Shown here in pieces: positions 19,626-59,799 of a stretch of DNA of 64,000 nt. A model generated the notes under the pieces. That model was not told where the DNA came from. It made no database searches and was given only the letters and a program-made list of their open reading frames with translations. The stretch spans positions 36,537,924 through 36,601,923 of the forward strand of contig NC_068570.1 of assembly GCF_025698545.1 (NCBI RefSeq), in the 5' to 3' direction. The position numbers were made by a program, and so were the translations under genes. Every line of letters begins with the position of its first letter. The first letter of the stretch is position 1. This stretch comes from Gossypium raimondii. Taxonomy: Eukaryota > Streptophyta > Magnoliopsida > Malvales > Malvaceae.

Positions 19626-20381
19626 AAGAAAGAAGTGGGAACTTATTATTCCAGATTTTTCATGGCAGAGAAGAGGTGGGGGATTGAGTTGGAGATAGAG
19701 TCAAAGAGCGCCAATTAAAGCTAAAGGTCTTGAAGGTTTTAAAGGAAACTTGGTTTGTAATGCCTGTCTCTCACCTGCGTCTAGAAATGGAAAATATTCT
19801 TTTAATTGAGAATTTAAACTATTTTATTTTATTTTATTTTATTTTATTTTAAGTTAATACATTAAATTTTTATTTAATTCTATTCTTCTAAATTATTAAT
19901 ACAATTATTGATATAGTATTATTTTATATTTATATATTGTATATATAAATAATTATATTTATCCAATATAAAAATAAATTGATGTATTTATTTAAATATG
20001 TATAATTAAATCAAAATTAAATTTTCTACCATACATTTGAACCAAAATTTGAGTTTTACGTGTATAATTACACCAAATAAAATTCATGTATACAATTACA
20101 CATTAAATCAAAATTCATATATAATTGTAAGATTTTCTCTTTTAATTTTGTATATTATTATTAATTTCAAATTATCTATTGCATTATTACATACTTATAT
20201 TTTAAATAAGTAGTTTACATAAGTATATTTGTAGTAGAATTGAAATATATTTATCATTCTAAATAAGATGTATTTAATTTTTTTTTTAAATTTAAATTTA
20301 TTTATTTATTTTAATTTTATACATATTACATATATGTTTAATATTAATTTCAAGTAGATATCTTATTATTTAATAGATATT
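19626..20381. other. CRK-A upstream region, paralogous to 32689-33128 and 35858-36220
   Basis: No gene. Contains a (TTTTA)n run at about 19821-19855. The sequence matches the CRK-B upstream region closely, showing tandem duplication of the spacer. Confidence 0.7.
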
Positions 20382-30163: not shown

Positions 30164-30949
30164 TTAAAACAGAATTAAATCTAACTTATACATGTCATTC
30201 AATTTTCTATAATTCAAATTACCTAACCTATAATGCCACAAACAAAAAGATTCAACCATATAAGCAGAAATAGTATTATTATTATTATTAATATTGAGTT
30301 TGAACATATTCTCATACATATACCCTTTCCCCACAAAAATTCCTCCGTTAGACAAAATATACTAATTTGCCTCAAAAACAAGTTTGAAACCAAACTTATT
30401 CAACAGACTTCCAGACACTAAAATCTTCCTAACTTCTGGTACATAATATACATCATTTAAGGTTAAAACCTTTCCAGAAGTGAATTGTAGTTCAGCAGAC
30501 CTTTTGCCTTTGATTGTTGCGGTGGAAGAATTTCCCATGTACAAGACATTGTCATTTTCACATTGTGTGAACTTTGTGAACATACTTTTGTCTTTGCACA
30601 CATGTTTGGTTGCTCCGATATCAATCCACCATGTATTATCATCTTGTGCCATATTAATTTCAAATACCATTGCAACAAAATTTTCGTTATTATCAACCTT
30701 AGAAGATGATTTCTTCTTTAAAAATTGACATTCATTCTTGAAATGTCTCGGCTTTCCACAATGATAGCATGAGCCCTTTTGTTTCTTTTTGAACTTAGGT
30801 ACTCTGTTAGTTTGTTTGAACTTTCTCTTGAATGGTTTAGTAGTTTGTACTTCCTCCGTAACATGCACTTTGACAATTTTAGAATTTAGGTTCTGATCTT
30901 GTTTTCGATATTCTTCTTCAAAAATGAAGATGATTTGCCAAAGCCTCAA
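30164..30949 (-). pseudogene. Copia gag zinc knuckle, protease and pre-integrase
   Basis: The frame 30949-30362 has a basic region, the zinc knuckle CYHCGKPRHFKNEC (CX2CX4HX4C) and a retropepsin-like segment WWIDIGATKHVCKDKSMFTK, with IDIGAT where copia elements usually have DSGAT, then FTSGKVLTLNDVYYVPEVRK. A second frame (30355-30164) gives the pre-integrase domain with FCLWHYRLGNLNYRKL. In live elements these form one polyprotein; here frames are broken near 30360 and 30160. The Asp-to-Ile/Asp shift in the protease site may also be inactivating. Confidence 0.75.
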
Positions 30950-31524
30950 GAGATATTTTCTCTTTCTTATGTTTTAGACTTCCTTTAAAGTCTTTCCAAG
31001 ATGAAGGAATTTTTTCTATTATGGAGGATACAACAATAATTTCATCCATTTTCATATCATATTGCTTGAATTGATTCAGCATCTTTTCAATATCATGGGA
31101 TTGTTCCATAACAGAATGACCATCAACCATTTGATAATTATTGAAAGGACTGACAAGAAATTTCTTACTTGCAACATCTTTGGTCATGTATCTTGTCTCC
31201 AATTTGTCCCATAATTCTTTAGCGGTGACCTCATTTTGGTAGGTGTCGAACAAACCATCAGATAAACCATTCAATATGTGGCCCATGCACATGTAATCAA
31301 CATTATCCCATTTTTTCCTTTCTCGAGTTACAACAACAGATTCGTTATCATTCTCTTCAGGTCTTGAAGTATCAAAAACAAAAGCAATCTTCAAAGTTGA
31401 TAATAAGAAGTGCATCTTTTTTCTGCCATCATCGAAAATTGCCACCATCAAACCTATCAAGTTTGACAAAGTTGAAAGCTAACTCCCTTAGCATTCCACT
31501 TTCATGTGTTGTGGTAGTCATCAT
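30918..31524 (-). pseudogene. Copia gag (UBN2-type)
   Basis: The likely start is the tandem ATG at 31524/31521 (MMTTTTHESGMLREL), followed by FNFVKLDRFDG. A frameshift leads into WQKKMHFLLSTLKIAFVFDT. Then come RKKWDNVDYMCMGHILNGLS, KELWDKLETRYMTKDVASKK and KKEKISLEALANHL, the gag polyprotein pattern of plant Ty1/copia. It lies right after the 5' LTR with a leader of only about 20 bp, and no recognisable primer site is seen. The frameshift near 31460 disables it. Confidence 0.8.
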
Positions 31525-31542: not shown

Positions 31543-32164
31543 TGTTAGTACAAATCTCCAGTGAAGAAAATCTCGAACACACGGACGGAACTCGAATAGA
31601 AAAAGAAGAAATAGGACAAGGCTCCAAGGCGTGTATCAAGTCACTATCTTTAAGGTTATATTTGCCCCCACCTATTTTTGGTGTGCAAATGAGTTCCAAG
31701 CAAATTAACCTCGAGGATACAATGAAGCCAATGACTATTTGCGTTTTGCACTGATGAGAATAGCCCACTACACACTAAGCAATGTATGACAATAAACTCA
31801 ATTTCTATAAAGGATTTCTGCAGTAATACTTTATAAAATAATCTAATAATATTAGAAAGGGAAGGAAGGAATGAAAGAATATTAGAATTTGTTGGTGTGT
31901 TTTCTAAATGAAATCCCATTCCTATTTATAGGAATTTTCATATCTCTTCATAGAGACATCTTTCATCAATAGGTGTCTTTCTAAATAATAATGTCTTTAA
32001 AATAAACACATAATTATTTATTTAATATTATAACCATTCAAATAATATTATTTAAATAGTTATAATTCTTTTTCAAAAAATCAAATAATATAACTTTTTT
32101 GATTAATTACACTCATTCATTTATAGTTATTGGAACACTATAAATATTTGAAAATGTTTCAACA
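31543..32164 (-). repeat. Copia 5' LTR (622 bp, inner end probable)
   Basis: On the minus strand it starts TGTTGAAACATTTTC at 32164 and probably ends GTACTAACA at 31543. The 3' LTR is lost, so the inner end is not confirmed by comparison. Confidence 0.6.
31923..31930 (-). promoter_or_regulatory. Copia LTR TATA box
   Basis: TATAAATA on the minus strand within CCTATAAATAGGAATGGG, about 235 bp into the LTR; a typical plant TATA box position. Confidence 0.5.
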
Positions 32165-32688
32165 TACTTACGAGTAGAAGGGTCGTTGGAAGCCTTTTTC
32201 ACCACACTGTCCATCAAAATCTCCCAGACCATATCAAATTGTGTTAAGTTAGATGTGATTTTACCGGTGTTATAGACTGCCTCAGGGGGATCTAGCTCCA
32301 GGGCTCCATAAAACAAGTGATCTGCATAGCGTACATGGCATGGTTGCCCTTCCCATGAAAGGGCTTCCTTCTGGTTGGGACAGTTAGCTATAAGGTTGTG
32401 GATTGTAGAATTGACACATTTATAACAATCGTCTGGAGTAAAGTCTCCTCTGCACATAGCAAGAGTGTAAACTTTGTCAGAGTTTTGGCCAATACTAGCA
32501 GTAAGGAAACCACCTTTTGCAAAGACAGTAGATAGGAGAGAAGCAAGAATAAGGTCCCAGTTTTTTTCCATATGTGCTATTTGTAGAGAAATTACCAGTG
32601 TCATAGCATTTTAGGAGAGCTTCAACAAGAGTGATGCCGATAAGGAGATGGGAGAGAATTGAAGAAAGAGTGTAAATTTAACCCACAT
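32165..32688 (-). pseudogene. CRK-B, exon 1 5' portion (DUF26 ectodomain fragment)
   Basis: Starts with MWVKFT at 32688 but loses one base near 32670 relative to CRK-A, so the signal peptide is read out of frame until a compensating change near 32570 (KNWDLILASL). From there it matches CRK-A closely: CRGDFTPDDCYKC (first C-X8-C-X2-C), SWEGQPCHVRYADHLFYGAL and ITSNLTQFDMVWEILMDSVV. It breaks off at about 32165 where the copia element enters, before the second DUF26 signature. The locus's kinase end is at 28919-29411. Confidence 0.85.
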
Positions 32689-35857: not shown

Positions 35858-37417
35858 TCTACTATACATTTGAACCATAATTTGAGTTTCACGTATATAA
35901 TTGTACCAAGTTAAAATTTATGTATGCAATTACACATTAAATCAAAGTTCATGTATAATTTTAAGATTTATCCCTTTTAATTTTGTATATTATTATTAAT
36001 TTCAAATTATTTGTTGCATTATTACATACATTTTAAATAAGTAGTTTACAAAAGTATATGTGTAGTACAATTGGAATACATTTATCATTCTAAATAAGAT
36101 GTATTTAACCGTTTAGTTTTTTTATTTAGATTTAAACTAATTTATTTATTTTAATTTCACACGTATTGCATATATGTTTAGTATTAATTTCAAACTAGAC
36201 ATTTCATTATTTAATAAATGTTATTTTCACTATACTTACTTTTGCTCTAAATACATTCTACGTGCATACATATGTGATAGAATTACTAATTAATATAATT
36301 TCCTCATTAAATTTAGGTTCACCAATTAATATAATTTCTTTTTAGTAGGCATTATCCCACTTGAAAAGTTATAAAATAAATTTTTCTTATTTTGAATAAA
36401 TTTAAAAAAATGTAGAGTGCAGTGTTATATAACATAAAATCTTAAATATTTTATTAATAATGTTTAATATTTAGAGTTATTTAAATTATAAAAGTATTTA
36501 CTTTTCTAAACTTTCTAGGTTTTCACATTTTAAATCTACATTTATTTTATTATTTAAGTATTTGTTTAAAAGTTAATATTTTCAAAATAGTTTAATCTTT
36601 TAGATGTCCTCGCTCGTTTTGGTGTTGAAAATGGTACTATTATTAGAGGTGGATGATAACGAGGCCCTAGGGGGTCTCTCACAAAATTTTGAAAATTCTT
36701 TTTAGACCTTAAAAATATAATAAATTAGAGTTAGGTCCCTTCAAAAAATTTGAAAATTTTCATTAAGTCTTTCAAAAAATTTAAAATTTTTAATTAGATC
36801 CCTTAAAATTTTTTTGTTGGTTCTCATTAAGCCTTTAAAAGTTTTAATTAAACCTACCAAAATTTTTAAATATTCTCACTAAATCCTCTAATTTTTTTAA
36901 ATTTTAATTAAACCCTAAACTTTTAATATAAAAATCCAACACTGACTATCAGCGGCAATGGAATGATTTTTCTACTGTTCTCACTAATTTTGAAGTTCTT
37001 TTGGTTTCATTGATCATACTATACTATGTGCCTGTTATAGGCCAGTTTTTCAAAATCATTGAGCTAGTTAATACTTAATACAGTAGACTGTGATGGGACT
37101 CCAGCCCCTACTTTGCATATGGAAACCATTGATAATTTGATTTTATTTGAACCACATATAGGACAATAAGTAAGAATGATGGTTTTCAGAATATTCAAAC
37201 CTTATCGAGGAAGTATGTCCGAAATTGGAACCTCTTTTTGGAGGTTGGATTTTGGAATCACCAGAGCTAGTAATTGTGTAATGAGATACATGCGTGTTTC
37301 TTCCTTCAGGAGGTCAAAGTCGACAGATAATAAAGTCCAAGTAACTTGTCTTTCGGGTTTTCTTTTTTGACTTGGTCGAAATCAAAGTCTACCTTGAGAG
37401 TAGCAAAGTGGTGAAAT
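35858..37417. other. Duplicated CRK spacer, copy 2
   Basis: Aligns with 20023-20381, 23133-23680 and 26753-27390 of copy 1. No gene recognised. Confidence 0.7.
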
Positions 37418-37912
37418 TAAGGGCTCCTTTGGATTGAGGCAGTGAGGCAGTGAGGCACGTTTTGAAGGAAAAGATGGTGCCAAACTCACTGCTGTGTTGT
37501 TTGGTTGAGGGTGTCAGTGCAGTGAGGTTTCTTTTCAAACACACCGATCGGTGATTTTCACCGGAGAAAATAGCAAAGATGGAGGCTAAACCGAGCGATT
37601 GACATTATAATGCATAAAAATAACCTTACTTTTATTTATTATTTTACCATTTTATCCTTAAAATTAAGTTAATTTCATTCCCAAAATGCAAAAACCCGCT
37701 CTTCAATTGACAAGAACAAAACTCCACCACAACAAAGAAAGGACTCTTAAAGAAGCTATATTTTCTACTCATCCTATCAATCTTGTTCTCAACTTTGATC
37801 CGTAAGTGAAAACCCTTCTTTTCTACTCTATATATGTGTTTGAATTGTATGAAAGTAGTTTCATTTTTCCTTTAAACACAAATCCATATGTTCTTTCTCC
37901 ATTATTTTTTAC

Positions 37913-38047
37913 CTCTACTTGCCATTGAAGAGATTGAACATAATTGATGATTTCATTCAGCATACCAGCTTTGTCTGTGATTTTGTTACATCCTGGTACT
38001 AAATCTTGCAGATACTTCATTCTTTCACTGATTTTCTCCCTTCTAAC
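37913..38047 (-). pseudogene. Captured bHLH transcription factor exon
   Basis: Exactly 45 codons between AG (acceptor, TATATAG) and GT (donor, GAG/GTAAAA). They encode [20 protein letters not shown], then [20 protein letters not shown] and QWQVE. This is part of the basic region, helix 1, loop and helix 2 of the CIB/BEE-type bHLH group. The arginines of the DNA-contact motif and the dimer interface residues are still readable. No other exon of the donor gene is next to it. It lies in the opposite orientation to the transposase and can only be a fragment. In the relatives I remember, an intron often splits the loop after GCNK; here the two parts are joined. Confidence 0.85.
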
Positions 38048-38285
38048 CTATATAAATCAACATAATTAAAACATTATTATCTAATGAAAGAGACATGATA
38101 AAATAAAAAAACAAATCAGTATTAATACCATTCATATTCATGTCTCCAGCAATGCTGTATTCATGTCTCAAACCTTCAAAAACTAAAACTATAAAAAATA
38201 AAACAAAGCACAACTAAACAAACGAAACAACAAAAGCTTGTAGTAATATGAACAAGTTTAGCAGGTTTGCTATATGACTTCATGC

Positions 38286-38492
38286 CTAACACAAGTTCAT
38301 CGTGAGGGGGTTAGTATCATATACCATATACCATATATCACAAGCATATATGATCTTATAATTCCTTCTTTTATCGAAGGGAATTTTTGGTACTTTGGGG
38401 AAGAAAGAAATCAAACAGTCAAGGCCTGCATCACCTAATAAAAGGAATTGTATCCCATTCCTCTTAGCATCAATCCAACCTACTAGGTGCAA
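38286..38492 (-). pseudogene. Unidentified fragment between captured exons
   Basis: An open minus-strand frame contains VGWIDAKRNGIQFLLLGDAG and FPKVPKIPFDKRRNYKIIYA. I do not recognise it. It lies between the bHLH and SAR1 pieces in the same orientation, so it may be a fourth captured fragment or element sequence. No function is proposed. Confidence 0.25.
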
Positions 38493-39001
38493 GAAGATAT
38501 TATCATTAAAAAAATAAAATTTGCATATTCATAATTAACTTGAACAAATGACTAAACAACTATATGTACAAATTCATTTTGGAATATTATCATTAAAAAT
38601 AAAATTTAATAAAAAAGCTATGAAAGTTATTAAAATAAAATTATTAATGATTATTAATAATTTCTAAAATATATCAAAATATAAAAAATGCTAAAACTAT
38701 CCCAAAACGATTTCAATCACATAGGTAGGTTACAGATTCATCCATACCGTTAAAAGATGACCTATGCTCTGTAAAATATAACAAAATTCTCTCATCACAA
38801 AATTACAGCAAAAATATGGGTATACAACCAAGCAAATATGTATATGGGCAAAATTTTGCTGTCTTTTGAGTTTTTTCACCATCCAACCATCCATTAACAT
38901 GTTTCTTATTAAACTGGTGATAACAATTGATTAATACTTGAATTTTTTAGTTGGTTTCTTATTGAAAAAATATATATACACACATACATAAATGCAAATA
39001 C

Positions 39002-39133
39002 CTTGGCGTAATAGTCCTTCCAGACCCTACGAGCAATCTGATAACAACCAAAATCAAAGGCCTTGAATTTGATCATTCCTATGCTTAGTTCTTCCGATGT
39101 TGGGTACTGTGTTGGCTGATGCTGAACTAGTCT
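39002..39133 (-). pseudogene. SAR1: Captured SAR1 GTPase exon
   Basis: Exactly 44 codons with intact splice borders (TTGTAG/AGACTA and GCCAAG/GTATTT). They encode [20 protein letters not shown], then [20 protein letters not shown] and YYAK, an internal exon of SAR1, the small GTPase that starts COPII coat assembly at the ER. The switch II DLGGHxxAR motif is damaged (DFGCYQIAR), removing the conserved Gly-His needed for GTP handling. The nucleotide-binding P-loop exon and the C-terminal exons are not present nearby. The retained intron flanks show capture at the DNA level rather than through a processed RNA. Confidence 0.9.
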
Positions 39134-39707
39134 CTACAATTTTCAAATTCCAATACTCCTAAATACTTGTCAGAGATTAGTGTACAAGTATCCACCCGGT
39201 AGCACTATTAGATAATTTCAAAGGCGAATTTATTTTTTTCTTTCCAACCAAACTGCTTAAATCCTATGGAAAGATAACTGTTTGTAATTTGTGGAGAATA
39301 TTTGTCATCTTTCCCCACAGGTAGGTAGAATATTATCTACGGCCTTTAACAAATAAATTTCACAACTACTTCCAAAATTGAGATTTTATATATAACAAAT
39401 AGGAAGCAAGGATTTTTTTTTCTTCCTTTTCCTGAAAGAAGTATCAATTCAAAAAGTAGGAGAAATGGATAACATAAAGATTGAACCCATTTAAATAAAA
39501 CAGGAAACAGAATTTGAGATTTTATTAGAAAGAATGGATCTGGGTAAGAAAACACTTAAAAGACAACATATCCAGGTAGAACAAATCTGAGTCTGGGTAA
39601 AATAAACGACATATACACAGCAAAGTAGAAAATATGCTACAGAACATAACTAAGTGTAGACTGATGTCAAAAGGTATTGACACATTGTACAAGCAGTATG
39701 TAAGTGA

Positions 39708-40739
39708 TCATATATCCATGTTATCAAATATTTCACAATCTTCCTCGTAAGACAAGTAGTCAGCAGCAAAACCATCAACCACTAAGTTACTGCAAGAGAC
39801 AATATATGGTAATGAGGCATAAAGATAATCATGGAAGCTTGTACATAACTATAAATATCACAGAGCACAATTAGACCCACCTTAAGCAGCAAAAGCTTAA
39901 ACTCACTACACGCTTTAGTTTCCTATTGTAGAAGAAGAAACTGAATGACTATCTCGCAAATATAACTCCACAAAGATTCTTGAACAATTATGGCCCATCG
40001 ACTACTCACTAAAGTATTAATATAATACACACTTACATTGATCATTTCTCCGAAAGCGGATCGCATCGTAGTCTGGATTATAACTATAAATTTTGCACTC
40101 CGAGAGTTTCACAACCTGCATAACCGGGTATTTAAAATTACCAGCTGCTGAGACTTGCATTTAGTCATTTCGAACTTACACTCACCTAATCTAGAGCCTT
40201 ATAAATCATTTTGAGGAGTGAACTACCCCCATATGCCTCGATCCATTCCTATCAATGATGTAAAGCAGAAACTTAAATGCGAACACGTTGACTTATTTAA
40301 GGATAAAACATACCACAATTGAATGAAAACTAGTTATCGCTCTTCTCACATACTACAAACCACCATCAACAGCATCAACATCTTCCCCCAAATCCATCTC
40401 TTTCACCCCGAATGACATGAACACAACACACCATTGGCCCAAAGTTTTATGAGTCTGATTAACTCCCAAAAAAACTGATGAACATACAAATTTTAGACTA
40501 AAATCACTTAAGTTATATTCATAACTAGCATAAATACCACAAGAACAGGAGATATGATAGTGCAACAAGAGTAACTGTAAGTTAATATTAGAGGAAATGC
40601 ATATTCCTTCTCTCACAAATGTGCCCAATAATTTTTTGATATCCAATGTCAAGAGAATAAATGAATACTTATGTCAATACCTTCGACGCTTCAAGCATGT
40701 TGGTATCAAAAATCTGTTTAAAAGTATCCCAGCTTTCCT
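39708..40739 (-). pseudogene. MAF1: Captured MAF1 gene fragment (five exons)
   Basis: Five exons with GT-AG borders and introns: 40739-40681 (ESWDTFKQIFDTNMLEASK), 40248-40186 (EWIEAYGGSSLLKMIYKALD), 40115-40037 (VVKLSECKIYSYNPDYDA), about 39950-39881 (FFFYNRKLKRVVSLSFCCL) and 39789-39708 (NLVVDGFAADYLSYEEDCEI to DNMDI and stop). This is the C-terminal part of plant MAF1, the repressor of RNA polymerase III transcription, including its natural stop. Lesions: Glu codon to TAG at the end of the second exon (40188-40186), a one-base loss in the third (DADP lost). The N-terminal exons are absent. Confidence 0.9.
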
Positions 40740-42279
40740 CTGTTAAGAACTAGTGTGCTTTAACTGCACTGGAACCACATCACCACATGCAATATCATAA
40801 TATAAGAGAACCATATAAGACACACATGAATGTCAGTATAAAGCATTCAATAGAACAAATAAGACTTGAATTAGACACAATCAAACCCATACAAGACACA
40901 CATGAAGCCACTGAAAGCATAAACACCATTCCCACCCTGAATTTTCAGCAGTTGGAGCATCCAATGAGGATACCAAACAAAAATTTTGCTGCAAACTCAG
41001 TAGCGTGAAAGTAGAACATAGAACCACTGGATTTGATACAATTTCAATATAACAATCCACAAATCTATCAACATATGAGGAATTGAATATAACCAATGAC
41101 TCATACTTTTTTTAGCAAAGCTAGGAAAGATCCATGCCTACATATCTTTTTATAAAAAACTCCATTAATTAATCCACAAAAATTTACATAAAAAATGAAT
41201 ATGATTAAATCTAACAAATTATAATAGAGATCAAAACATATTCACCAAGTATTATTCACAAAAATATAACAGAAAAAGAAGCATAAATGAAAAACTGCCT
41301 TGCTCCTATATTAAAATCACATTGAATTTCAAATAATCAGAAAAAAAAGTATCAGAAAAAAAAGAGAGAATTAAACAAAGAAAGAAGCGAACTGACCTAC
41401 ATAATCTCCAAGGAAGCCATAATCGGTTAGTTTCAATCTTTGAAGCCTAATGGATTTATTTTGCCTACGCCAATATTACAAAGAATGAAAGAGCTTTTCT
41501 TTCTTTTTTTTCTCCCCTTGGTGGCTCCGCCGAGTCAAATTCCTGTGAATTACACGTGTTAATTTTATGCTTCTTTGAACATAAACATTTTATCTGTTTT
41601 ATTATTATTCTTTTTTGGCATAATAACCTTTTTAGTCCTCCAACTTTAGAAGAAAATTTATTTGAGTATTTTAATTTATAGTTTTTGTCAAATAATTCTA
41701 AAATAGATAAAAAAAAATTAGCATTTTTTAATTTTATTGACATGCATACATGTAAATTACCACATAGAAAACTCATATTAAATAAACATATCAGTGCTTG
41801 TAGCCAAAGGCCCAAAGGCCCTGTATTTATTTGGCAGAAACATGAAGAAATTGTATTGTAGATAGATTTTTAAGCAATAAACGTGAGCCAATGGTTCTTG
41901 CAGATTTTTTCTTTAATTTTATTAGTTTGCCCTAGAGACTTAAGTCTGATATCCATATAAATATGTCTTCTGTCCAAGAGAATCAGAAATGGAGTAAATA
42001 TGAGACTTGAAAATTATATTTTTGTTGCATTCATTTTCCCTTTTTCCATTAAGTTGAAGCTTCAATTAAGGTGCCAATTTTTTTTTGGGTGTGGCTAGAT
42101 AAAGATTAGCATTGGGAGACGTCTAAAATAACTTATAGACTATATATGTTCTCTATGCTTCTTGGTGAATGCTAGCACATTGACTGAATTATATCAATGA
42201 CAATAGATGGTAAAGACACGAAATTTTGTGGACGAAGATAGTAGCTTAGCAACAAAAGTTGTTTGGGATGATAGCTGAC
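40740..42279. other. Interior of Harbinger element 2, no gene recognised
   Basis: Between MAF1 and the Myb-like gene I find no recognisable exon. Short frames at 40787-41008 and 41465-41815 have no family resemblance I can name. Confidence 0.5.
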
Positions 42280-43336
42280 GTTGATATTTTGTGAACTTTG
42301 CGTGAATGAAGTCAATGCTGGTAATAGACCGACAACTCATCTAAACTCAAAAGGATGGGAAAATGTCATTGCTTTTTTTCAAGTAAAAACACAAAAAAAT
42401 TATGGAAACCTCAATTGAAAAATAAATGGGATACATTAAAAAAGGAATGGAGGTTATGGAGGGAGTTGCTTAAGAAATCTACAGGTATTGGATGGTGTCC
42501 ATCTAAAAAGACGATCGATGCTACGGAAGAATGGTGGGCTGCAAAAATACAGGTTAGTGTTAACTTTATCATTATTTTAATGCATAAAGTTTATTGAAAT
42601 TAATAATTTACAATTATAAAAGTCTTAGTATAACATTTAAATTTAACATGTTATGTAGGAAAATCCTGATTTTAAAGGATTTAAGAAGAAAGGAATTGAA
42701 CCACGATTGAATGAGTTAATGTGGCAAATGTTTGGTGGCATTGTAGCCACTGGAGAGAACGCATGGGCACCTTCGTCTGGTGTTCTTCCAAGTGGGGTTC
42801 CTATGGGAGATGATGCACCTAATGAGGGATTTGGTGATTCAGATGAACATAGTAACGAGAATGAAGGTATTCCTCCTGATGAGGTACCATCAAACCCTTT
42901 TCATGAAATCCCTGATCGAAGAAAGCAAACACTTGGGGTTGTACATGGTAAAGGAAAAAAATCAAGTTCAAGTAGAAAATCATCAAGAAATACATTAACT
43001 ACCCATATTGAGAAATTGTGTGAGAGCATGTCTAGTCCAAGGAAGTCAGTGAATGAAATTATTTTTCCACACTCTCAATATACTATTTCAAATGCAATAG
43101 ATGCTTTGCGTGCTTTGGGAGATGAAATTCCAAAAAAAGATGAACTATACTATTTTGCCACCAAAATGTTCCAAATACCGGTGAAACGAGAAGTGTTTTT
43201 GAACTTAGATCCAGATGATAGGGTTTGGTGGCTTCGACGTGAGTATGCTGAACAAAATCCAATTGCATCATTTTCATCATTGGTAGCAACATCCTCATTT
43301 CCCTTCCAACCATACCATCAACCACCTCCACCATAA
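42280..43336 (+). pseudogene. Harbinger Myb/SANT-like DNA-binding protein
   Basis: Exon 1 (about 42280-42552) encodes FCELCVNEVNAGNRP, SKGWENVIAFFQVKTQKNYG, then after a one-base loss near 42400 NKWDTLKKEWRLWRELLKKS and IDATEEWWAAKIQ, a Myb_DNA-bind_3 domain. Intron 42553-42658 has GT-AG ends. Exon 2 (42659-43336) encodes NPDFKGFKKKGIEPRLNELM, an acidic linker, a Ser/Lys-rich segment KGKKSSSSRKSSR and a C-terminal helical region ending QPYHQPPPP. In PIF/Harbinger systems this second protein carries the transposase into the nucleus and to the element ends. It lies just upstream of the transposase on the same strand. The frameshift suggests it is not made. Confidence 0.85.
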
Positions 43337-43511
43337 GCTCCGTAGAATTATTATTGTAATATAACTATACTACTTTTTTATATGTAAAACTAATGTATGC
43401 TACTTTTTATGTTTGGTATTTTTATGCTGTGCTTTTAATCAAGTTTCTGTGTTGTATAGAATGTCACGAGATTTTAAAGGATTTATTTTCATTTGATCAC
43501 TTTTTCAGGTT

Positions 43512-44949
43512 ATGGATGAATTTAACAATATGTATAATAGTTTTGATATGAATTATGATACCCCTGAATTAAGTGAAGAAGCTCAACGAAGAATAGCCAC
43601 AATTGTTACCCAAGTTGAGAACAACAGTTATCATGAAGAGGAAGAATATGTGTTAAGCAGTGTATTGGTACACCATGAAACTTATTTCACTATGCAACCG
43701 CGTATGGATTGAAATTATATAGGTCAAATGTGGGTGGATGAAGTATTAAAAGGGCACGATGATCGTTGCATGAATAGTTTTAGGATGCCAAAAGATATAT
43801 TTCACAGCTTGTTGCATGATTTGCAAACAAATTATGGCTTAAAGAATGGGAAAGTATCGACGATGGAGAAGTTAGCATTATCATTATACATTCTTGGAAA
43901 TAGAGAATCAAATTCAAATGCAACAGAGCGCTTTCAACGATCTGGGGAAACTGTTAGTCGAATTTTTACTGATATGTTGCATATATTTGCTCGAATGGGA
44001 ATAGACACGATTAAACCCACTGAAGGTCAATTCGAGGAAGTACCGAACCATATTCGACATGATACAAGATATTGGCCTCACTTTAAGGTAAAATTTACAC
44101 ACTCTTTATATTTTTAAAATATAAATTATTTCTAACTTGTATCTCATTACTTGTATTTATTTTAAAGGATTGTATTGGGGCCATAGATGGAACACACATA
44201 AAAGCATGTATTTCGCCTTCTTGTCAAATACCTTATATCGGACGGAAAGGTGAACCAACTCAAAATATTATGGCAGTTTGTGACTTCAACATGTGCTTTA
44301 TTTTGCATTTCCTGGTTGGGAAGGAACATCACATGATAGTAGAATTTTTTTGCAAGCACTTAGAAAACAAGAGTTGAAGTTTCCACACCCTCCACCAGGT
44401 TGAACTTTAAATTTTTAATTACTTTTTACATAAAAAATTAAAATTTTTAACTTATTTTTAAACTTGATATTATGTTTTACTTTTTTGTAAGAAAATATTA
44501 TCTTGTGGATTCAGGATATCCACAAATGGCAGGTTTTCTAGGTCCGTATAGGGGGAACGATATTATTTACCTGATTTTCGTCGAGGTAATCATCAAGTAT
44601 CTGGAAAAAAAGAAACCTTTAATCATGCCCATTCTTCGTTACGCTCTGTGATTGAACGAACATTTGGAGTGTGGAAAAAAAATGTCCAATATTAAGAGAT
44701 ATTCTAAGTTATTCATTCAATAAGCAAGTTTTAATAGTTATTGCATCAATGGTTTTGCATAATTACATTCGAAGACATGCTTCGTCAAATGATGAGGATT
44801 TTCGAGAATTTAAGAATATACCCGACATGCCAGTCTCTTCAAGCCAGTTTGACAGAGGTGAATCGAGTTCTTCTAATAGAGAAAGTGACCTTGAAATCAT
44901 GATGTTAAGGGAAACCATTGCAACTAGTTTAATGAATCCATATTTGTAA
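43512..44949 (+). pseudogene. Harbinger (HARBI1-like) DDE transposase
   Basis: Three exons: 43512-44087, 44168-44398 and 44492-44949, all with GT-AG introns. Visible blocks are GQMWVDEVLKGHDDRCMNSF, LALSLYILGNRESNSNATER, the first catalytic Asp in IGAIDGTHIKAC, AFPGWEGTSHDSRIF, the second Asp in YYLVDSGYPQMAGFLGPYRG, and Glu in SLRSVIERTFGVWKKKCPIL, with a C terminus ending TSLMNPYL. Lesions: a stop in exon 1 (43709-43711), a one-base loss near 44305 and a one-base gain near 44553. The enzyme is a DDE_4 nuclease that moves the element. All catalytic residues remain readable, so decay is recent or mild. Confidence 0.9.
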
Positions 44950-45490
44950 AAACATTTTGTATCATAACCTAATTTCTAGTAATAATGAAACTTGTTATGT
45001 CTTATGCTACTATTTTTTTATTAAAATTTATCCGTTTAGATACTTTAAAATTTGATCCAAGTATAATGTTACTATTTGTAAAAATAATATTTAACATTGT
45101 TATAAAAAATATTTAACTATAAAAATTAAAATAATTATCATTTTATCTAATAAATAATTTAAATTAATTATATAATTCATTAAAATATTGGAAGATACAT
45201 TTTAATATTTTATTAAATGAATTTATAAATTCACATATTTTAATAATTTTAAAAATTTAAATAATTTAAAAACTTCTATTATATATCAATTCTAATCGAT
45301 GTCCTTAATAGTCATTTTATTCTCACCTCACACTTCTACAATTGCGTTTGAATCCAAACACACACTCCACCACTTGTTTCTAATCTCACCGCCACAAGTA
45401 TCCAATCTCACCGCCACAGTAACTAATCTCATCGCCACCGCTGTTTTTAACCTCACCGGAGGCAAACACACCGCCCATCCAAACTAGCCC

Positions 45491-45842
45491 TAATTGTATC
45501 CAAGAAAAAGGAAACGAAAATTGTACCTTCTCATCCATACTCGTTGAAAATTCAGTTTTGAACAAATAGACTCGTTTTTGCTGCTCTGTCTTCGGTAATG
45601 GAATGATTTTCCCACCGTTCCCACTTTGGATTTGAAAAGTCAGCTTCATACCAGTTTTTTCATACCCCTTTGTCATTTACTACATATATATCAAAGTTCA
45701 ATACAGAAAACTCGGAAGAACATCTCCCTGTGTTTTGCAGGAATGTTGCAGAACATTTAGCTAAAAGAGCGGCTTAACAAAATTTTTAGAATCTATCATA
45801 TCTTGTAATAGTGAATAAATTGAAGATGGAATGACTAATCAA
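45491..45842. other. Duplicated spacer and CRK-C 3' flank
   Basis: Continues the alignment with copy 1 (27391-27514 and 28707-28918). Probably includes the CRK-C 3' UTR. Confidence 0.6.
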
Positions 45843-48800
45843 TCACCGAGGTGACATGTTTGAAATCGTAACTTCATTAACAGAACATATTTTATCACTT
45901 GAATTGGGTTGAACTGATTCTGCAATAAAACGTCCAACATAAAATGCAGGTTTCGCTGGTAGAGGAACTGTTATGGTTTCGCTTCCTAACATTGCAACCA
46001 CTGTTGACATAGTTGGTCTGTCTGCCGGATCTGATTGCACGCACAATAACCCAATTTGGATGCATTTAAGCACCTCGTTGGGCACACTCGACTCAACAAG
46101 ATTCTTATCCAGTAACTCCATTCCTTCTCCTTTGGACCATAGTTTCCACGCCTACAATTCTTACTTAGAATTAGCGTAGTATACATAACATGGTATTAAT
46201 CTATTATTTAAATTTTGATGGGATAAGAAAACATACAAAAGTCAGGAGGCTTTCTGAAAGATGAAACCCATTATTCCTTTTTCCACTTATAATCTCCAGC
46301 AAAAGGACACCGAAACTGAAAACATCAGATTTGACAGAAAAAAGTCCTTCCATAGCATACTCGGGTGCCATGTATCCACTGTTGTCGTTCATAAGAAACA
46401 GTGAAGAAAAACTAAATCAAAATTAGATAATCATAAGAAACTTTACAAACATGAACTGATTTTCAATGTATATCAATCACATATCAGATACTCTCGGTAA
46501 CAAAACCAAGTTTTGTTTCTAATCACTAACCATGAAACATACTAAGATTCATTACTTGCATGGGGTCCTTCTAGTTTATATGATATTGATGTAGAGGACA
46601 TATTTCTCAGAACTGGTCGATGAATATGGATAAGTTGAAGTTGGCAACAACTAATGGTGAAGAAATAAGTAGATGTAACCCTGTAAGCTTATGAGTTAAT
46701 AAGTTGGGAAGAACCAATTAATAGACTTACTATGTTCCGACTACTCTATTTGTATTTGCTTCATTCAGATCTCGGCCAAAAATTTTTGCCATACCAAAGT
46801 CCGAAATTTTCGGATTCATCTCATGGTCAAGTAAAACATTACTTGCTTTAAGGTCTCTGTGGATAATTCTAAGACGAGAATCCTCATGCAGATACATGAT
46901 ACCTCGGGCAGTTCCTTTAATAATATTGAATCGTTTTTGCCAAACTAGTTGGGCAGGCAAACTCGAATCTGACAAATGCTCAAGAAGGAGAGAAAAAGAA
47001 ATGACAAGTTAAATATTCAAATTTATTTTGTGTATGTATAAGATAATGTTGTTATTTAAAGGTTGAAGGATCAAACCGAATAGGAACACGTCAAGGCTTT
47101 TGTTGGGCATGAATTCATATACAAGCAACTTTTCGTTTTTCTCTAAGCAGCATCCTAAGAGCCTCACAAGATTCCTATGCTGTAATTTGGCAATTAACAT
47201 GACCTCATTCTTGAACTCAAGCAGCCCTTGACCAGAAGTTCTTGAGAGCCTTTTAACTGCAATTTCTTTTCCATCCGCTAGTGTGCCCTACAAATTAACA
47301 TATTAACATGCATTTTTTCTTAACTACGTTATTTTAGTTCCTAACCATAATTACCTTGTATACAGGGCCAAAACCACCTTGTCCTAGCTTATTTCATCAC
47401 AAAAATTATTGGTTGCTACTTGTAAAATATTCAATTGAATTGAAGGAAACTCCTGCGACCTTCCTATATTTTGTAGATCAAAATTTTCGCTTGAGTTCCC
47501 ACGAGGAACACTTCCCATTACCAAGTCAAGTAATCGAACTTCTTGGCCTTTATCCTCTGTAATAAAACAAAATGTGATTGGCTATAAGATTATAACATAA
47601 ATTTGTAAATGCCAGCATGATCTAATAGTGCATACCTTGAACGTTTCTCCTTCTCCAGATAAAGAAACCACAAGAAGAAAACAGAGCTAGTCCTAGAGTA
47701 GCTGATAAGCTTGTACCAAGTGGTATCCATATTGGTTTGTTTTGTTTCGTTTCATCTGATAATTTTTTCCCAGAAAAAAGAGATCTTATCATCAACTCGT
47801 GGAAGGACACGTAACAAGAAACACAAAAACTCAACTAGCCTTAGCAAGAGAGCAAAGCTTGCAACTCATATAGTGGAAGATTGTTTAGACTAGATACTAA
47901 GTGTGCTGGCAACCATATCTACTTAGGCTGAAATGAATACAAAAGAAGATGGCTAACTAAATCCAATCAAAGGAGCCGATCCTTTTATTGATTGGCTAAC
48001 CACTTACTCAACAGTCGAATTGACTATTCTTTTGTTGCAACAAATGATCTTGCAGTGTTTTTGTTTGAATCAAATGCAATCAGAGATGAAGAGGATGAGA
48101 AGGATTGAGAAAAGGAGCTGTGGTTAAGTCGTTGGCTGTGAGGAATGCTGGATTCAGAAAAGACGGCTCTCAAACCATATTAGAGATTGAATGAATAGAT
48201 GGTTTCCATGTTCCAATTTGGTAATTTTTATTACATCAATTTACTTACGAGTCATCTAGCCATACTTACCTTTTGTAAATGTATGTGCAGGAGATAAAGC
48301 AGCAGTAGTGTTAGGTCCTACTGTATAGAAGCGATGCAAATCCCAGCGGAAATAACAGTTAGGCTTCTGAACAAAACCACCTTGCTTCGCTCGGCAACAG
48401 TCATCATGGGTTTCTGTGGCTCGCTTTAGGCAGGTCCAACAATGTTGCCGTGATAAATCTGGGGTGCATTGCATTAGTGCATATATAGTTTGAGATTCTG
48501 TAAATTTTGCTTCCTCAGTTGCATACTTAAACTTAGAAGAGCCGTTGGAAGCATTTGTCCTCATACTGACTACCAAACGATCCCAAGCCATTTCAAATTC
48601 TGTTAGTACGTCCGATTTGATGCTTTCATTGTTATGAGCTGCATCCGTGGGTTCTACCTCCAAGTTTCCAAAAAATGGGCGATTTGCATAGTGTACAATA
48701 CACGGTCGTAAAACTGCCAATGAAACGGCTTCTTTCCAGTGAGGACACTTAACTCTGAGATCATTAACCGAGGAACTGACACAAATATAACAGTCATCTT

Positions 48801-49068
48801 TAATTAAGTCTCCTCTGCACATCCCAAGAGCGTAAGCTTTGTTGGAGTCTTGGCCACCAGTGGCTTCAAAGAAACCACCATTTTCAGAGACTTTGTGTGG
48901 GAGAGAATCGAGAATATAGTCAAGGTTTTTTCCATATGTACTGCTGGTTGTGAAACTACCCGAGTCATTGTAGCACCTAAAGCTTTGGTAGGTTAGATTG
49001 ATGCCTGCAAAATTTTCCATATGAAAGCTTTCGTTAAGGGGTTTTTCTTTTATAAATTGGCTAAACAC
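45843..49068 (-). pseudogene. CRK-C, cysteine-rich receptor-like kinase with seven exons
   Basis: Exons: 1 (49068-48270), 2 (47755-47636), 3 (47556-47355), 4 (47287-47077), 5 (46968-46731), 6 (46378-46237), 7 (46151-45843), all GT-AG. Exon 1 has two DUF26 modules (CRGDLIKDDCYIC; CTPDLSRQHCWTC). Exon 2 encodes the membrane helix IWIPLGTSLSATLGLALFSS then WRRR. Exon 3 encodes the juxtamembrane part and glycine loop, exon 4 has IAVKRL and [11 protein letters not shown], exon 5 [10 protein letters not shown] and DFGMAKIF, exon 6 [10 protein letters not shown] and SDVFSFG, exon 7 LKCIQIGLLCVQSDPADRPT. Defects: a one-base loss in exon 3 (about 47390) just before the glycine loop gives a stop, and the N terminus (MFSQFIKEKPLNES) lacks a signal peptide. 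It is the best-preserved kinase here; the frameshift should be checked for assembly error. Confidence 0.88.
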
Positions 49069-52383: not shown

Positions 52384-52461
52384 ATATGCGCTCAATTCAG
52401 AAATTGAGAAGACTGTTAGAGCCAATCGCAAGGAGACAAATTTACGAAAAAACAGTCAGCG

Positions 52462-53640
52462 GTGGTTGGAACTAAAAGTAACCCACCACTAAAAATCGAA
52501 GCCGACGACGAAGCTGAGTCTAGGGTTAACGAAAACCCTTCTCGAACACTTGAAAGTAAAAAAGTAGAAGTCAACTCACCAGAAGAAGTGCTTAACGCTA
52601 GGGTTAACGAAAACCTGAATCTAGCAAACCAACCAATGGCTCAAACGATCCGACAACTGGCCAAAGTTCCAACAGAACAACCACCATTGTGCATCGCGTA
52701 TCCTACTGTGGATACTAATTTTGAGTTAAAGTCAGGTTTAATCCAGTTACTGCCAACTTTTATTGGGTTGCAAAATGAAAATCCCCACGAGCATCTGAAA
52801 GAGATTCATATGGTTTGTCTTAGCATGAAACCTTATGGGGTAACTGAGGATCAAATTAAATTGCTTGCTTTCTCTTTCTCCCTAGCAGATTTCGCTAAGG
52901 AATGGTTATTTTATTTACCCCCTGGATCTATTACAACTTGGGCTAATTTATCTCGTTTGTTTCTGAACAGGTTTTTTTCCAGCGTCTCGAGTAGCTGAGC
53001 TAAGAAGAGAGATCGTTAGAATAAAGTAAAAAGAAGCTGAGTCCCTTTACGATTATTGGGAGCGATTTAAGAAGTTATGTGCAAGCTGGCCACAATATGG
53101 TATAATGGAGCAATCTCTCTTCCAATACTTTTATGAAGGTTTGAAGCCCATGGAGATGAATACGGTAGACGCCGCTAGTGGAGGAGCATTGGTCAACATG
53201 ACTCCCCAACAAGCGAGAGACTTGATCTCTATGATGGATGTAAATTCTCAGCAGTTCTGAGCCAATATTGAACCCCCTAGAAGGGTTCACCAACTAAGTA
53301 ATTCAACCTTAGAGGATAAAGTTGATAGACTTACTAATACGATGAACTCTCTTATTGCAGAAAAAGTAAAGACAGCTCGGTTATGCGGAATATGTGCTAC
53401 ACGATCATACAACTAATGCATGTCCCAGTTTGTATGATGATACCACGGCCCATCTAGATTCTGTAGAAAATTTCCCTGGGCCACCACAAAGTCGATACGA
53501 CCCCTACGCTAATATCTACAACCCAGGGTGGAGGGACCATCCTAACTTAAGTTATAAGGCCAATCCACGAAATAACCAGCCATACCAAAATCAGTTTCCA
53601 CAGCAGCCGTAAGGTTCATGTAATTTTCTAGAAACCATGA
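52462..53640 (+). pseudogene. Athila-like gag
   Basis: An open frame at 52462-52998 encodes a polar N terminus, then NFELKSGLIQLLPTFIGLQN, HEHLKEIHMVCLSMKPYGVT and LPPGSITTWANLSRLFLNRF, the retrotransposon gag core. A frameshift at about 52975 moves the frame; the sequence continues with ELRREIVRIK, a stop, then EAESLYDYWERFKKLCASWP and MTPQQARDLISMM to about 53270. The gag C terminus follows in broken frames to about 53640, with a Tyr/Pro/Asn-rich segment. It would form the particle shell. Stops at several points make it non-functional. Confidence 0.85.
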
Positions 53641-54048
53641 TCAAAAGTTAGTAGCTAATGTTTCTGATTTTTAATAGAAAACTCTTAATTTCCAAAAAGA
53701 GACGAAGGATTTCCAACAGAAAACTGAGGCATCCATTAGAGAGTTGACCACATCGATCGAGAAATTGACCTTTCAAGGGAAACTACCGTTGCAAATAGAA
53801 CCAAACCCTAGACAAAATGCGAATGCAGTGACATTGCGAAGCGAAAAGGTACTGGAACCGATTTCTGATAAGAATCTTGGCTAAGAAATAGTCCAAAAAA
53901 ACCCAAGAAAGATAAACAGGTACGACCGAAACCTCTATTACCTAAAATTTAACCTCTATTTCCAGAATGATTCAACCAGTGTCGACGAGGTAGAGAGGAC
54001 AAGAAAATCCTCAAAACATTTAGGAATGTTGAGATCAACATTTTACTG

Positions 54049-55101
54049 TTGGACGCCATTAAGCAAATACCACAGTTTGCTAAATTTCTTAAAGAGCTTT
54101 ACACCAACAATCGAAAATTAATATGTAATGAAAGGGTGAATATTGGTGAGAATTTATTTGCAGTGTTACAGCAGAAAATGCCGGCAAAATGTAAGGATAG
54201 GGGCATGTTTGTAATACCATACAAAATAGGCCATCTGAGAATTAAAAAGGCTATGTGTGATCTAGGGACTTCTATAAATGTAATGTCATATTCTATTTAT
54301 GAATCACTTAACGCGGTTTTTTTGACAAAAACAAGTGTTATCATTCAATTGGCGGACATGTCTGTTGTGCATCCAAAAGGAGTCCTTAAGGATGTTTTGG
54401 TAAAAATTAACGAGTTCATTTTCCCTGTAGATTTTTATGTGATCATAATAGAGGATGATAGCACTCTTGGATCTTCAGATCACCTGCTGGGTCGACCATT
54501 CCTTAGTACAACTAGTACTAAAATTGACGTTCGAAGTGGAACTCTCACGATAGAGTTTGATGAGGAGATCGTAAATTTTAATGTCTACGACGCCATTAGC
54601 CATCCAAGTGAAATCTTGAGCGTAAATCGTATCGACATAATTGACTCTTTAGTGGAAAAGAATTTTGAGTCAATTTATGAAGATAATTCTGAACTTGATG
54701 AATTTGAATTTGTTAATGAGTTATTATCTCCAAATACTAAACTATTACCTTTTGTTATACAGGCTCTAGAGTTGGAAGAAATTCACAATGATGCCTACGA
54801 GAATGTTCGTATTTATAAAGACATGACAAAGTTGTTTCACGATAAGAGAATAGCTTAGAAGCATTTTTCGGTAGGACAAAAAGTTTTACTTTATAACTCT
54901 GTGTTAAAATTATTCCCAGGTAAGCTTCGATCACGATGGCAATGACCTTTTATTGTTACTAAAGTGTTCACACATGGAGCGATTGAAATAGAGAGTGAAG
55001 AATCTGGAAAGCAATCCGTAGTCAATGGCCAGCGGTTGAAGCCGTTTTATGAGAATTTTCAAGCCCACATGGTTGAGAAAATCAATTTGGAACGACCATA
55101 G
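54049..55101 (+). pseudogene. Athila-like protease joined in frame to integrase C terminus
   Basis: The open frame 54049-54858 encodes LKELYTNNRKLICNERVNIG, then a retropepsin-like domain with the active-site motif CDLGTSINVMSYSIYE, LADMSVVHPKGVLKDVLVKI and SSDHLLGRPFLSTTSTKIDV. After about 54765 it reads LELEEIHNDAYENVRIYKDM, which belongs to the integrase C-terminal region, with no RT, RNase H or integrase core between. After a stop at 54856 it continues FSVGQKVLLYNSVLKLFPGK, VVNGQRLKPFYENF to about 55101. The in-frame joint points to an internal deletion of about 3 kb in an ancestor. Function is not expected. Confidence 0.85.
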
Positions 55102-57925: not shown

Positions 57926-58457
57926 TAGCCAACAAATTTGAAACTTTAATAATAATAACTCTCTGATTACCTACAATGAAAAGGCAGAAATAAAGGTTCA
58001 AAAACCTTTAGGCTATAACCTTATCCAACCTATGTGCCTTAGTGTTGGTGACCTTTAGGATAGGAATGATATCCCATCTTCTACCCGGTCCAACATCTGA
58101 CCTTTTTTACTTTCGTATATATCGTTTTATTTATATAATTTATATGAAAATATATATGTAAACATAATATAAAATTTATTAAGTTATGTTTAAAAATTAA
58201 AAATCTTATATATCATTATTATGTATTGGAAATTTTGATCAATTAATTATTTGAATCCATAATATGTTTTGATATTTTGAATTGAAAGCATTTTTACTGA
58301 TATAATTATTTTAATTTAATATATAATATATTTGCTTATAGATGTCAAGCTCTTTTAGAATGATACCTATTAGAATTAATTTTCTTTGAAAAGATGCATA
58401 TTTTAGTTTTAATTTAATTCAATTTACTCACGAGTCATGTAGAAAATGCTTACATAC
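57926..58457. other. CRK-D 3' flank, no kinase exons
   Basis: The first 80 bp after the splice donor resemble CRK-C intron 1 (TTTACTCACGAGTCAT compared with TTTACTTACGAGTCAT at about 48240). Further left, 58333-58370 matches the upstream flank of CRK-C instead. No exon 2-7 sequence is present. Confidence 0.6.
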
Positions 58458-59262
58458 CTTTTATATCTGGGGGAGGAGGTGGAGGAGATAAGGATGGCGG
58501 AGATAAGGATGGGGCTGCAGCAGTAGAAGCATTGCGTTTATAGAAAGGATACAAATCCCATCTGAACCAACAGTTAGGCTTCTGAACATAACCTCCCTGC
58601 TTTCCACGGCAACAGCTTTCATAGTTACTCACGGATTGCCTTAGGCAGGAATCAGAGTCCTTGTGTGATAAATCTGGAGTGCACTGCATAAGTGCATGTA
58701 TCGTTTGGAATGCTGTAAAATTTGCTTCCCCGGTTGCATACTTAGTAGAAGACCCGCTGGAAGCCTTGCTCACCACTCTGTCCATCAAACTCTCCCAAAT
58801 AGTATCAAATTGAGTTAAGTTGGACGTGATGTCCGCCGTATTATAGCCTGCATCAGTGGGTTGTAGCTCCAGGATTCCGAAAAAGGGGCGGTTTGCATAG
58901 CGTGCAAGACAAGGAGGATCACCTCCCCATGAAAGGGCTTCTTTTCGGTTGGGACAGCTAGCTATGAGGTCCTGGATTGAGGCATTGAGACATGTATAAC
59001 AACCGTTCGGAGTAGAGTCTCCTCTACACATACCAAGAGCGTAAATTTTGTTGGAGTCTTGGCTGATACTGGCAGTAAAGAAACCACCATTTGCAGAGAC
59101 ATTAGGTAGGAGAGAAGCGAGAATAAGGTCTCTGTTTTTGCCATATGTACTATTAAGGGTGAAATTACCAGTGTCATAGCATCGTAGGTTAGCGTCAACG
59201 AGAGCAATGCCGATAAGCAGATGGGAGAGAATTGAAGAAAGAGCTTTAAGTTTAATCCACAT
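58458..59262 (-). pseudogene. CRK-D, DUF26 ectodomain exon without kinase
   Basis: 268 uninterrupted codons from MWIKLKALSSILSHLLIGIA (signal peptide, likely cleaved near DANLRCY) through two DUF26 modules to a Pro-rich stalk, ending at a good donor (AAAAG/GTATGT). Module 1 keeps CRGDSTPNGCYTC. Module 2 reads CTPDLSHKDSDSC, with the middle Cys of C-X8-C-X2-C replaced by Ser, so a conserved disulphide or fold element is altered. Reading past the donor adds Gly-Met and a stop, so an unspliced message would encode a secreted two-module DUF26 protein of about 270 residues, like CRRSP proteins. It is either a truncated CRK or an accidental CRRSP. Of the four loci it has the cleanest exon 1. Confidence 0.75.
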
Positions 59263-59799
59263 TTTGAGATTCTATAATTTCAAGGAACCAAAATCGAGAA
59301 AAAAGAAGTGGGAACTTAGTATTCCAGATATGTTTCGACAGAGATGGGAGTATTTGTGTTTTGGTTGCCTTGCCTGGAGTGGGAGAAAGATTCAAGAGCG
59401 CCCATTAAAGCAAAAAGATTCAGTCCATGCTAGGAAGCTTGGTTTTCGGGTTATCTTTTTGACTAATCCAAGTCAATGTCTACCTATCAAACAAAATTTC
59501 GGAAAAGAATTTCGCTTAATTCATTGAAAATAATGCAAACATAATGAAAAATCATATATGTTGAATTGGATGGTTTTGTTTTGAACATTCAAACTCGTTT
59601 TCTGTGGTACGTATTTTGCCACAGTTCCCACTTCCTTTCCAAGTTTCATTTGCTTCTTTGAATTTACTACCTGCCTGTCAGAGTAATTACTCTGGTTGGG
59701 CTAATTAGTGCTGGGCTTTTTTACTTAAATAATTCAAAAAATATAAATATTTACAAAAATAATTAAGGTTGAAAAACTATAATGAAAATTACATGAAAT
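59263..59799. other. CRK-D upstream region
   Basis: Shares short segments with other CRK upstream regions (TTTTCGGGTTATCTTTTTGAC, about 59430; compare 37350). No gene or clear promoter element identified. Confidence 0.5.

Follow-up and report, generated by a model that had tools for sequence, protein, structure and literature searches.

A PIF/Harbinger element of Gossypium raimondii with antisense pieces of unrelated host genes between its left end and ORF1

The 64,000-nucleotide window of Gossypium raimondii DNA analysed here (NC_068570.1:36,537,924-36,601,923, forward strand; coordinates are positions in this window unless another locus is named) contains at 37421-45490 a single PIF/Harbinger element with TAA on either side, which carries two genes of its own together with pieces of bHLH, SAR1, MAF1 and PP2A-type phosphatase genes (Table 1). 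Its terminal inverted repeats (TIRs), GGGCTCCTTTGGAT and GGGCTAGTTTGGAT, agree at 12/14 nt. The first-pass annotation had described one Harbinger element bounded by TIRs and TAA, with two plus-strand genes, and both statements hold. The first open reading frame gene (ORF1) matches PF12776 in the window itself, and the transposase domain PF13359 (DDE_Tnp_4) was found in the sibling copies L039 and L040 (1.4e-6 and 2.2e-6; L-numbers denote genomic loci retrieved for comparison with the window); four pieces of the window's own transposase, tested against Pfam, gave no match. A 3-bp TAA/TTA target-site duplication (TSD), short TIRs, the DDE_Tnp_4 transposase of the siblings and the Myb/SANT-like ORF1 together place the element in the PIF/Harbinger superfamily. 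The frames of both genes are interrupted in all four complete copies whose ORF lists were read (window, L039, L040 and L041), none of which has the intact ORF1 and transposase of an autonomous element. The earlier description as near-autonomous is thus right for the layout and wrong for the state of the genes. A 21-bp tandem repeat (2.7 copies) at 45380-45438, near the right end, could represent transposase binding repeats.

The stretch between the left end and ORF1, here called the cargo bay, holds the host-gene pieces. Antisense bHLH, SAR1 and MAF1 pieces had been noticed before and are supported by Pfam HLH and Arf matches and by the 94.8% identity of the MAF1 piece to locus L017. The number of three donors was too low, as a PP2A-type phosphatase gene (L030) is the source of three further pieces (39165-39540, 40915-41427 and 41422-41776). 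These are almost wholly non-coding, which may explain why they had been missed, and coding exon 1 is mostly absent between the second and the third (a donor stretch of 341 bp). The name PP2A comes from reading of the peptide, the Pfam phosphatase matches being weak and below curated cut-offs (PF00149 and PF16891, 0.001; PF00149, 0.007). Introns are kept, in agreement with the earlier claim of capture at the DNA level. The claim that capture was precise to the exon did not survive: SAR1 homology to the donor extends past the exon on both sides (38676-39168), and the bHLH piece in L039 is a longer, multi-exon capture that is contiguous with its relative L073. The SAR1 and bHLH exons measure 132 and 135 nt, both divisible by three. 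A part of the bHLH gene that is present in L039 is absent from the window between 38138 and 38143, and since L039 keeps the longer contiguous piece, the window form is a later deletion. Cargo stretches without recognised origin lie at 38452-38675 of the window, at 3335-4032 of L039 and at 2302-3354 of L036.

Table 1. Features of the PIF/Harbinger element and its cargo bay in the window.
Feature	Coordinates	Strand	Evidence or remark
Left target-site copy TAA	37418..37420	.	
Left terminal inverted repeat	37421..37434	+	12/14 nt pair with inverted right end
Putative leader exon end, splice donor GTAAGT 37802-37807	37740..37807	+	exon status putative
bHLH gene piece (exon 37913-38047 and intron)	37876..38138	-	Pfam HLH 1.8e-6; 87% to L073 over 37906-38065
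Probable 5' flank of captured bHLH gene	38143..38445	-	inferred: in L039 directly adjoins bHLH start codon
Cargo stretch without recognised origin	38452..38675		
SAR1 gene piece (exon 39002-39133 and flanking intron)	38676..39168	-	Pfam Arf 1.6e-11; 93% to SAR1 gene L031
PP2A-type phosphatase piece, no coding exon recognised	39165..39540	-	95.2% to L030 333-706
MAF1 gene piece, exons and introns	39545..40894	-	94.8% to MAF1 gene L017 1501-2850
20-nt junction filler	40895..40914	.	first 12 bases and preceding 8 repeat 40811-40830
PP2A-type phosphatase piece (intron and tail of exon 1)	40915..41427	-	94.6% to L030 1501-2017
PP2A-type phosphatase 5' flank	41422..41776	-	88.9% to L030 2358-2713
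Putative splice acceptor AG of leader intron	41902..41903	+	
ORF1, Myb/SANT-like, intron-containing, broken in window	42207..43336	+	Pfam PF12776 (Myb_DNA-bind_3) 5.9e-11 and reading frames
PIF/Harbinger transposase gene, interrupted in window	43512..44949	+	DDE_Tnp_4 in siblings; split reading frames
Right terminal inverted repeat	45477..45490	-	
Right target-site copy TAA	45491..45493	.	

The element belongs to a multicopy family. All comparisons were made within this one genome (751 Mb, 281 contigs), and every match seen lies on contigs C1-C13. With the 3,851-base left block as query, 75 matches were obtained (best 40 of 99 candidates scored), among them six complete copies, namely the window and five others that are 94-96% identical to the window's, as well as two long deletion derivatives. 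The presence of the complete block in six copies with different flanks is not due to chance. The first 380 bases gave 154 candidates (best 40 of 154 scored, some matches partial), and for 31 of the 40 scored left ends the ORF1-side segment follows at a distance of 2.2-5.0 kb on the same strand. For the last 491 bases the number of candidates was 1,532 (best 40 of 1,532 scored), about ten times that of the left end at first look, so that many relatives may carry other left halves. In eight of the nine copies with both ends read, the TSDs agree (TAA or TTA; left borders of minus-strand loci shifted one base, by eye), L040 being the mismatch. As the unit recurs at other sites with TSDs of its own, the paired ends delimit one element and not nested insertions, in line with the earlier reading. 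The left end of L039 is met head-to-tail by another Harbinger element, whose right end (L039 171-421) lies directly against it, with one TAA apparently shared.

The same bay holds different cargo in sibling elements. Pieces of PDS5 were recognised in L039 (2.2e-12) and L074 (8.9e-6), and the bay of L040 contains a copper amine oxidase piece (2.2e-23) and a mitochondrial-carrier-type piece, for which two peptides of the donor L076 gave matches below cut-off (2e-4 and 1.3e-3) and a third gave none.

For five modules a locus was read that is very likely the donor: L031 for SAR1, L017 for MAF1, L030 for the PP2A-type phosphatase, L076 for the carrier and L075 for the amine oxidase. L031 (C3) has SAR1-type exons from start to end, and the SAR1 fragments of the elements mostly show 92-95% identity to it (86% in L014, where gaps are many). 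A K-to-M change is common to fragments and L031 and absent from three more SAR1 genes used for comparison, a set that leaves aside another four SAR1 matches located outside elements. L017 (C12) matches at 94.8% over 1,350 bases, beyond which the gene continues, and a further exon matches Pfam Maf1 (4.1e-7). L030 (C4) is 89-95% identical to the window pieces, L076 (C1) 96.4% to L040, and L075 (C12) shows 97.6% identity. The five donors lie apart, on C3, C4, C1 and at two distant loci of C12, an outcome in favour of the capture model by the refutation test that the first-pass annotation had set. The element's left end and genes had no match in the 1.2-4.4 kb read at each donor locus; L030 alone has two 36-38-nt matches to an AT-rich part of the right end, which are taken as chance. 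Rejected as donors were L072 (C7:13193957) for MAF1, with 75-79% identity vs 95% for L017, and L062-L064 for SAR1, given the 93% identity and shared K-to-M change of L031. The best relative of the bHLH piece, L073, is 87% identical in the exon region; outside it the figure is 72-82%, according to how the alignment is scored. It was rejected as direct donor, as 45% of synonymous vs 4% of non-synonymous sites differ, and its sequence is more likely that of a paralogue of the donor. A locus at C6:60196239 with 96% identity is a candidate donor of the PDS5 piece. Raw mismatches to the donor, with shorter partial rows left out, number 33-36 of about 949 for SAR1 in L025 and L039 and 18-23 of about 508 in most other copies, 52-82 of about 1,353 for MAF1, 14-19 of about 375 for the PP2A-type pieces, 11-30 of about 641 for the carrier and 12-19 of 554 for the amine oxidase; the ranges of the modules overlap, and no order of capture times is drawn from them.

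Pieces in the bay have replaced parts of one another. MAF1 takes the position expected for about 795 bp of phosphatase gene sequence that include an exon, and in L040 the carrier and amine oxidase pieces stand in place of window positions 40524-40978 and 41222-41485, which are MAF1 and PP2A-type parts. The sequence across the MAF1/PP2A junction (40887-40906) is identical, but for one mismatch, to 40811-40830 at a distance of 76 nt, and 12 of the 20 bases of the filler (40895-40914) look copied from nearby. Such a 20-nt repeat within 300 nt was found for 215 of 19,954 random 20-mers of the window, and a longest exact match of 14 nt for 304 of 19,581 random 24-nt stretches. At the junction at 39541, 9 nt recur in the MAF1 donor about 50 nt further on (chance 95 of 39,045 random 12-mers). 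Other than by short fillers, junctions are marked by overlaps, which in L040 measure 1 to about 7 nt by eye. The microhomology and the fillers seen at several junctions, with two fillers that look like copies of adjacent sequence, indicate that breaks were repaired by template switching.

How cut-and-paste transposons capture genes is debated, with one proposal holding that neighbouring insertions fuse and another that errors arise in the repair of gaps (capture models are reviewed in PMC13317346). For the family described here, we regard it as likely that the bay serves as a tolerant site which is filled by break repair copying from unrelated genes. Foreign DNA would be tolerated in the interval from the left end to ORF1, which is probably the leader intron of that gene; breaks within the interval would be repaired by copying from unrelated genes through template switching, and the host-gene pieces with their introns would have replaced earlier cargo or been added to it. 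Transposition of the element, likely with a transposase provided in trans, would then have multiplied its cargo. Antisense pieces would have survived since sense pieces would spoil ORF1 expression.

Conservation and orientation speak for parts of this scheme. The GTAAGT at 37802 is unchanged in 17/17 distinct aligned copies and the AG at 41902-41903 in 14/14, the window included in both cases. Kept in this way and framing the bay, these putative splice signals suggest, though only suggest, that the bay may be the leader intron of ORF1. Each of the seven gene modules that were identified lies antisense to ORF1 and the transposase (7/7; two-sided sign test, 0.016). Sense pieces would bring splice and poly(A) signals that interfere with ORF1 expression, and we infer that they are lost for this reason. 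The uniform orientation, should it hold in more copies, suggests that the surviving cargo is filtered by transcription of the element.

Several points weigh against this explanation or parts of it. In the stretches around the splice signals 103/133 columns on the donor side and 127/163 on the acceptor side are invariant, so that GT and AG are not outstanding. The sign test takes the seven captures as independent, and no orientation could be assigned to the three cargo stretches without recognised origin. For the fillers, the chance values (1-2% and 0.2%) make only a modest case and apply to hand-picked junctions, and the overlap lengths were judged by eye, without a chance model, in A-rich DNA. 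Between L041 and the window (40894-41427; MAF1, PP2A exon 1) neither arrangement can be derived from the other by deletion alone, and their difference needs a second PP2A pick-up or an exchange between copies. Values of pN/pS (proportions of non-synonymous and synonymous differences) lie below 1 for the captured exons: SAR1 fragments give 0.38 in comparison with the donor and 0.54 when compared with each other (44 codons), and bHLH fragments 0.40 among themselves (pN 0.032, pS 0.080; 18 distinct sequences, 45 codons). Finally, the second Harbinger end that abuts L039 head-to-tail also suits a model of tandem fusion.

In that model, put forward for the Pack-TYPE elements of every DNA superfamily, PIF among them (PMC8903248), two related elements land close together, and loss of their inner ends turns the intervening host DNA into internal sequence. 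In its favour, L039 has another Harbinger right end directly at its left border. In the bay, however, pieces from different chromosomes adjoin, no element end being visible at their joints, and pieces have taken the place of parts of others; two of the fillers are similar to donor sequence close by, and L040 comes close to a donor piece filling a gap with both outer borders unchanged. Despite the neighbouring Harbinger end, the junctions fit template-switching break repair better than fusion of neighbouring elements, and we hold fusion to be an unlikely origin of this cargo.

A different proposal is that the antisense pieces, with the PP2A-type 5' flank upstream, form a chimeric gene or a source of antisense or small RNA that matters to the host or the element; a hypothetical effect on Pol III, COPII or bHLH signalling had been put forward in the first-pass annotation. 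The uniform direction of the identified modules, the position of the phosphatase flank, the SAR1 and bHLH exon lengths in multiples of three and the pN/pS values below 1 would all suit it. It is nevertheless improbable: siblings differ in cargo, exons have been lost, and stops and gaps are present. Among 13 distinct SAR1 fragments in elements, three have a stop and two have internal gaps. The pN/pS data are too few to claim selection or its absence, and the cargo is most likely functionless and decaying. It could also be imagined that, with the bay in the leader intron of ORF1, every ORF1 transcript would carry antisense copies of host housekeeping genes such as MAF1, SAR1 and the PP2A-type phosphatase, and that antisense-only cargo is an adaptation, in that small-RNA silencing of the element would also strike the host donors and thus become costly; we think this very improbable.

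That another mobile element, already loaded with gene pieces, landed in a plain Harbinger element would agree with the confinement of the block to one interval. Yet none of the 16 inverted-repeat pairs listed for 36900-46000 (minimum 14 nt) has its arms at the block borders (no search was made for other element types), and the siblings hold different subsets joined at different points, so that such an insertion is hardly credible. Six complete copies of the block, five of them 94-96% identical to the window's and in different flanks, leave next to no room for an artefact of assembly or annotation.

The proposed filling of a tolerant bay by repair can be set beside several published systems, here compared through the accessible portions of the papers cited. 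The closest precedent is Pifvine-3 of grapevine, likewise a PIF element with ORF1 and transposase, which has a long extra 5' region of up to 3.5 kb with host exons and introns common to several copies (Benjak et al., 2008; PMC2528002). The cotton family has the same layout, with cargo of exons and introns common to copies between left end and ORF1, and the likeness drawn here is one of layout; serial capture order, junctions and orientation are found only for the cotton family as far as those portions of the grapevine paper go. Turmoil-1 of Caenorhabditis elegans is also a Harbinger-type element with transposase that carries two unrelated host coding pieces close together, from which its authors tentatively infer a hotspot; it differs in that the pieces lie in 760-bp inverted repeats, in being known from one complete copy and eight fragments, and in its animal host (PMC2572040). 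The element had been thought unusual in kind. Since Pifvine-3 and Turmoil-1 carry host fragments likewise, that view is no longer tenable, and the cotton element is a well-preserved, layered example of a process known from grapevine and not a new kind of element.

Pack-PIF elements, a group of the Pack-TYPE elements, resemble the cotton family in having host coding DNA within PIF/Harbinger ends, and are defined as non-autonomous (Gisby and Catoni, 2022; PMC8903248). The cotton element contains host gene fragments between TIRs that were multiplied by transposition and so works like a Pack-TYPE element, yet it falls outside that definition, which asks for no transposase match, as a recognisable though broken transposase gene is present. 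The Pack-TYPE pipeline files any transposase-matching element as autonomous, and families of the cotton kind would consequently, by design, drop out of its counts (PMC8903248). In animal Pack-TIRs, gap filling with microhomology has been inferred as a capture route, as here; it differs there in applying mainly to single-copy elements, a replication-fork model being put forward for multicopy ones (PMC8277862, in whose main text the word Harbinger was not found). A cargo-bearing PIF/Harbinger family of this kind in cotton is not reported in the titles and abstracts listed from the open PMC literature (12 of 16 where Gossypium raimondii was named). Searching the genome for further copies and for donors, as had been suggested, yielded five other complete copies of the block and donors for five modules, and much of the capture history is readable within one genome, including very likely donors, intermediates, replaced segments and junction fillers. 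Each junction can in this way serve to test the fusion and gap-repair models, in a PIF/Harbinger family with a recognisable transposase gene.

The element sits inside an array of open frames resembling parts of receptor-like kinases, with kinase-like frames near 46204-47008. Related minus-strand frames at 18786-19700, 32113-32610, 48256-49068 and 58450-59271 read, by eye, as extracellular domains of cysteine-rich receptor-like kinases. Also by eye, 30362-31478 (minus strand) and 52420-54858 (plus strand) appear as remains of Copia-type gag and Gypsy-type gag/protease, respectively.

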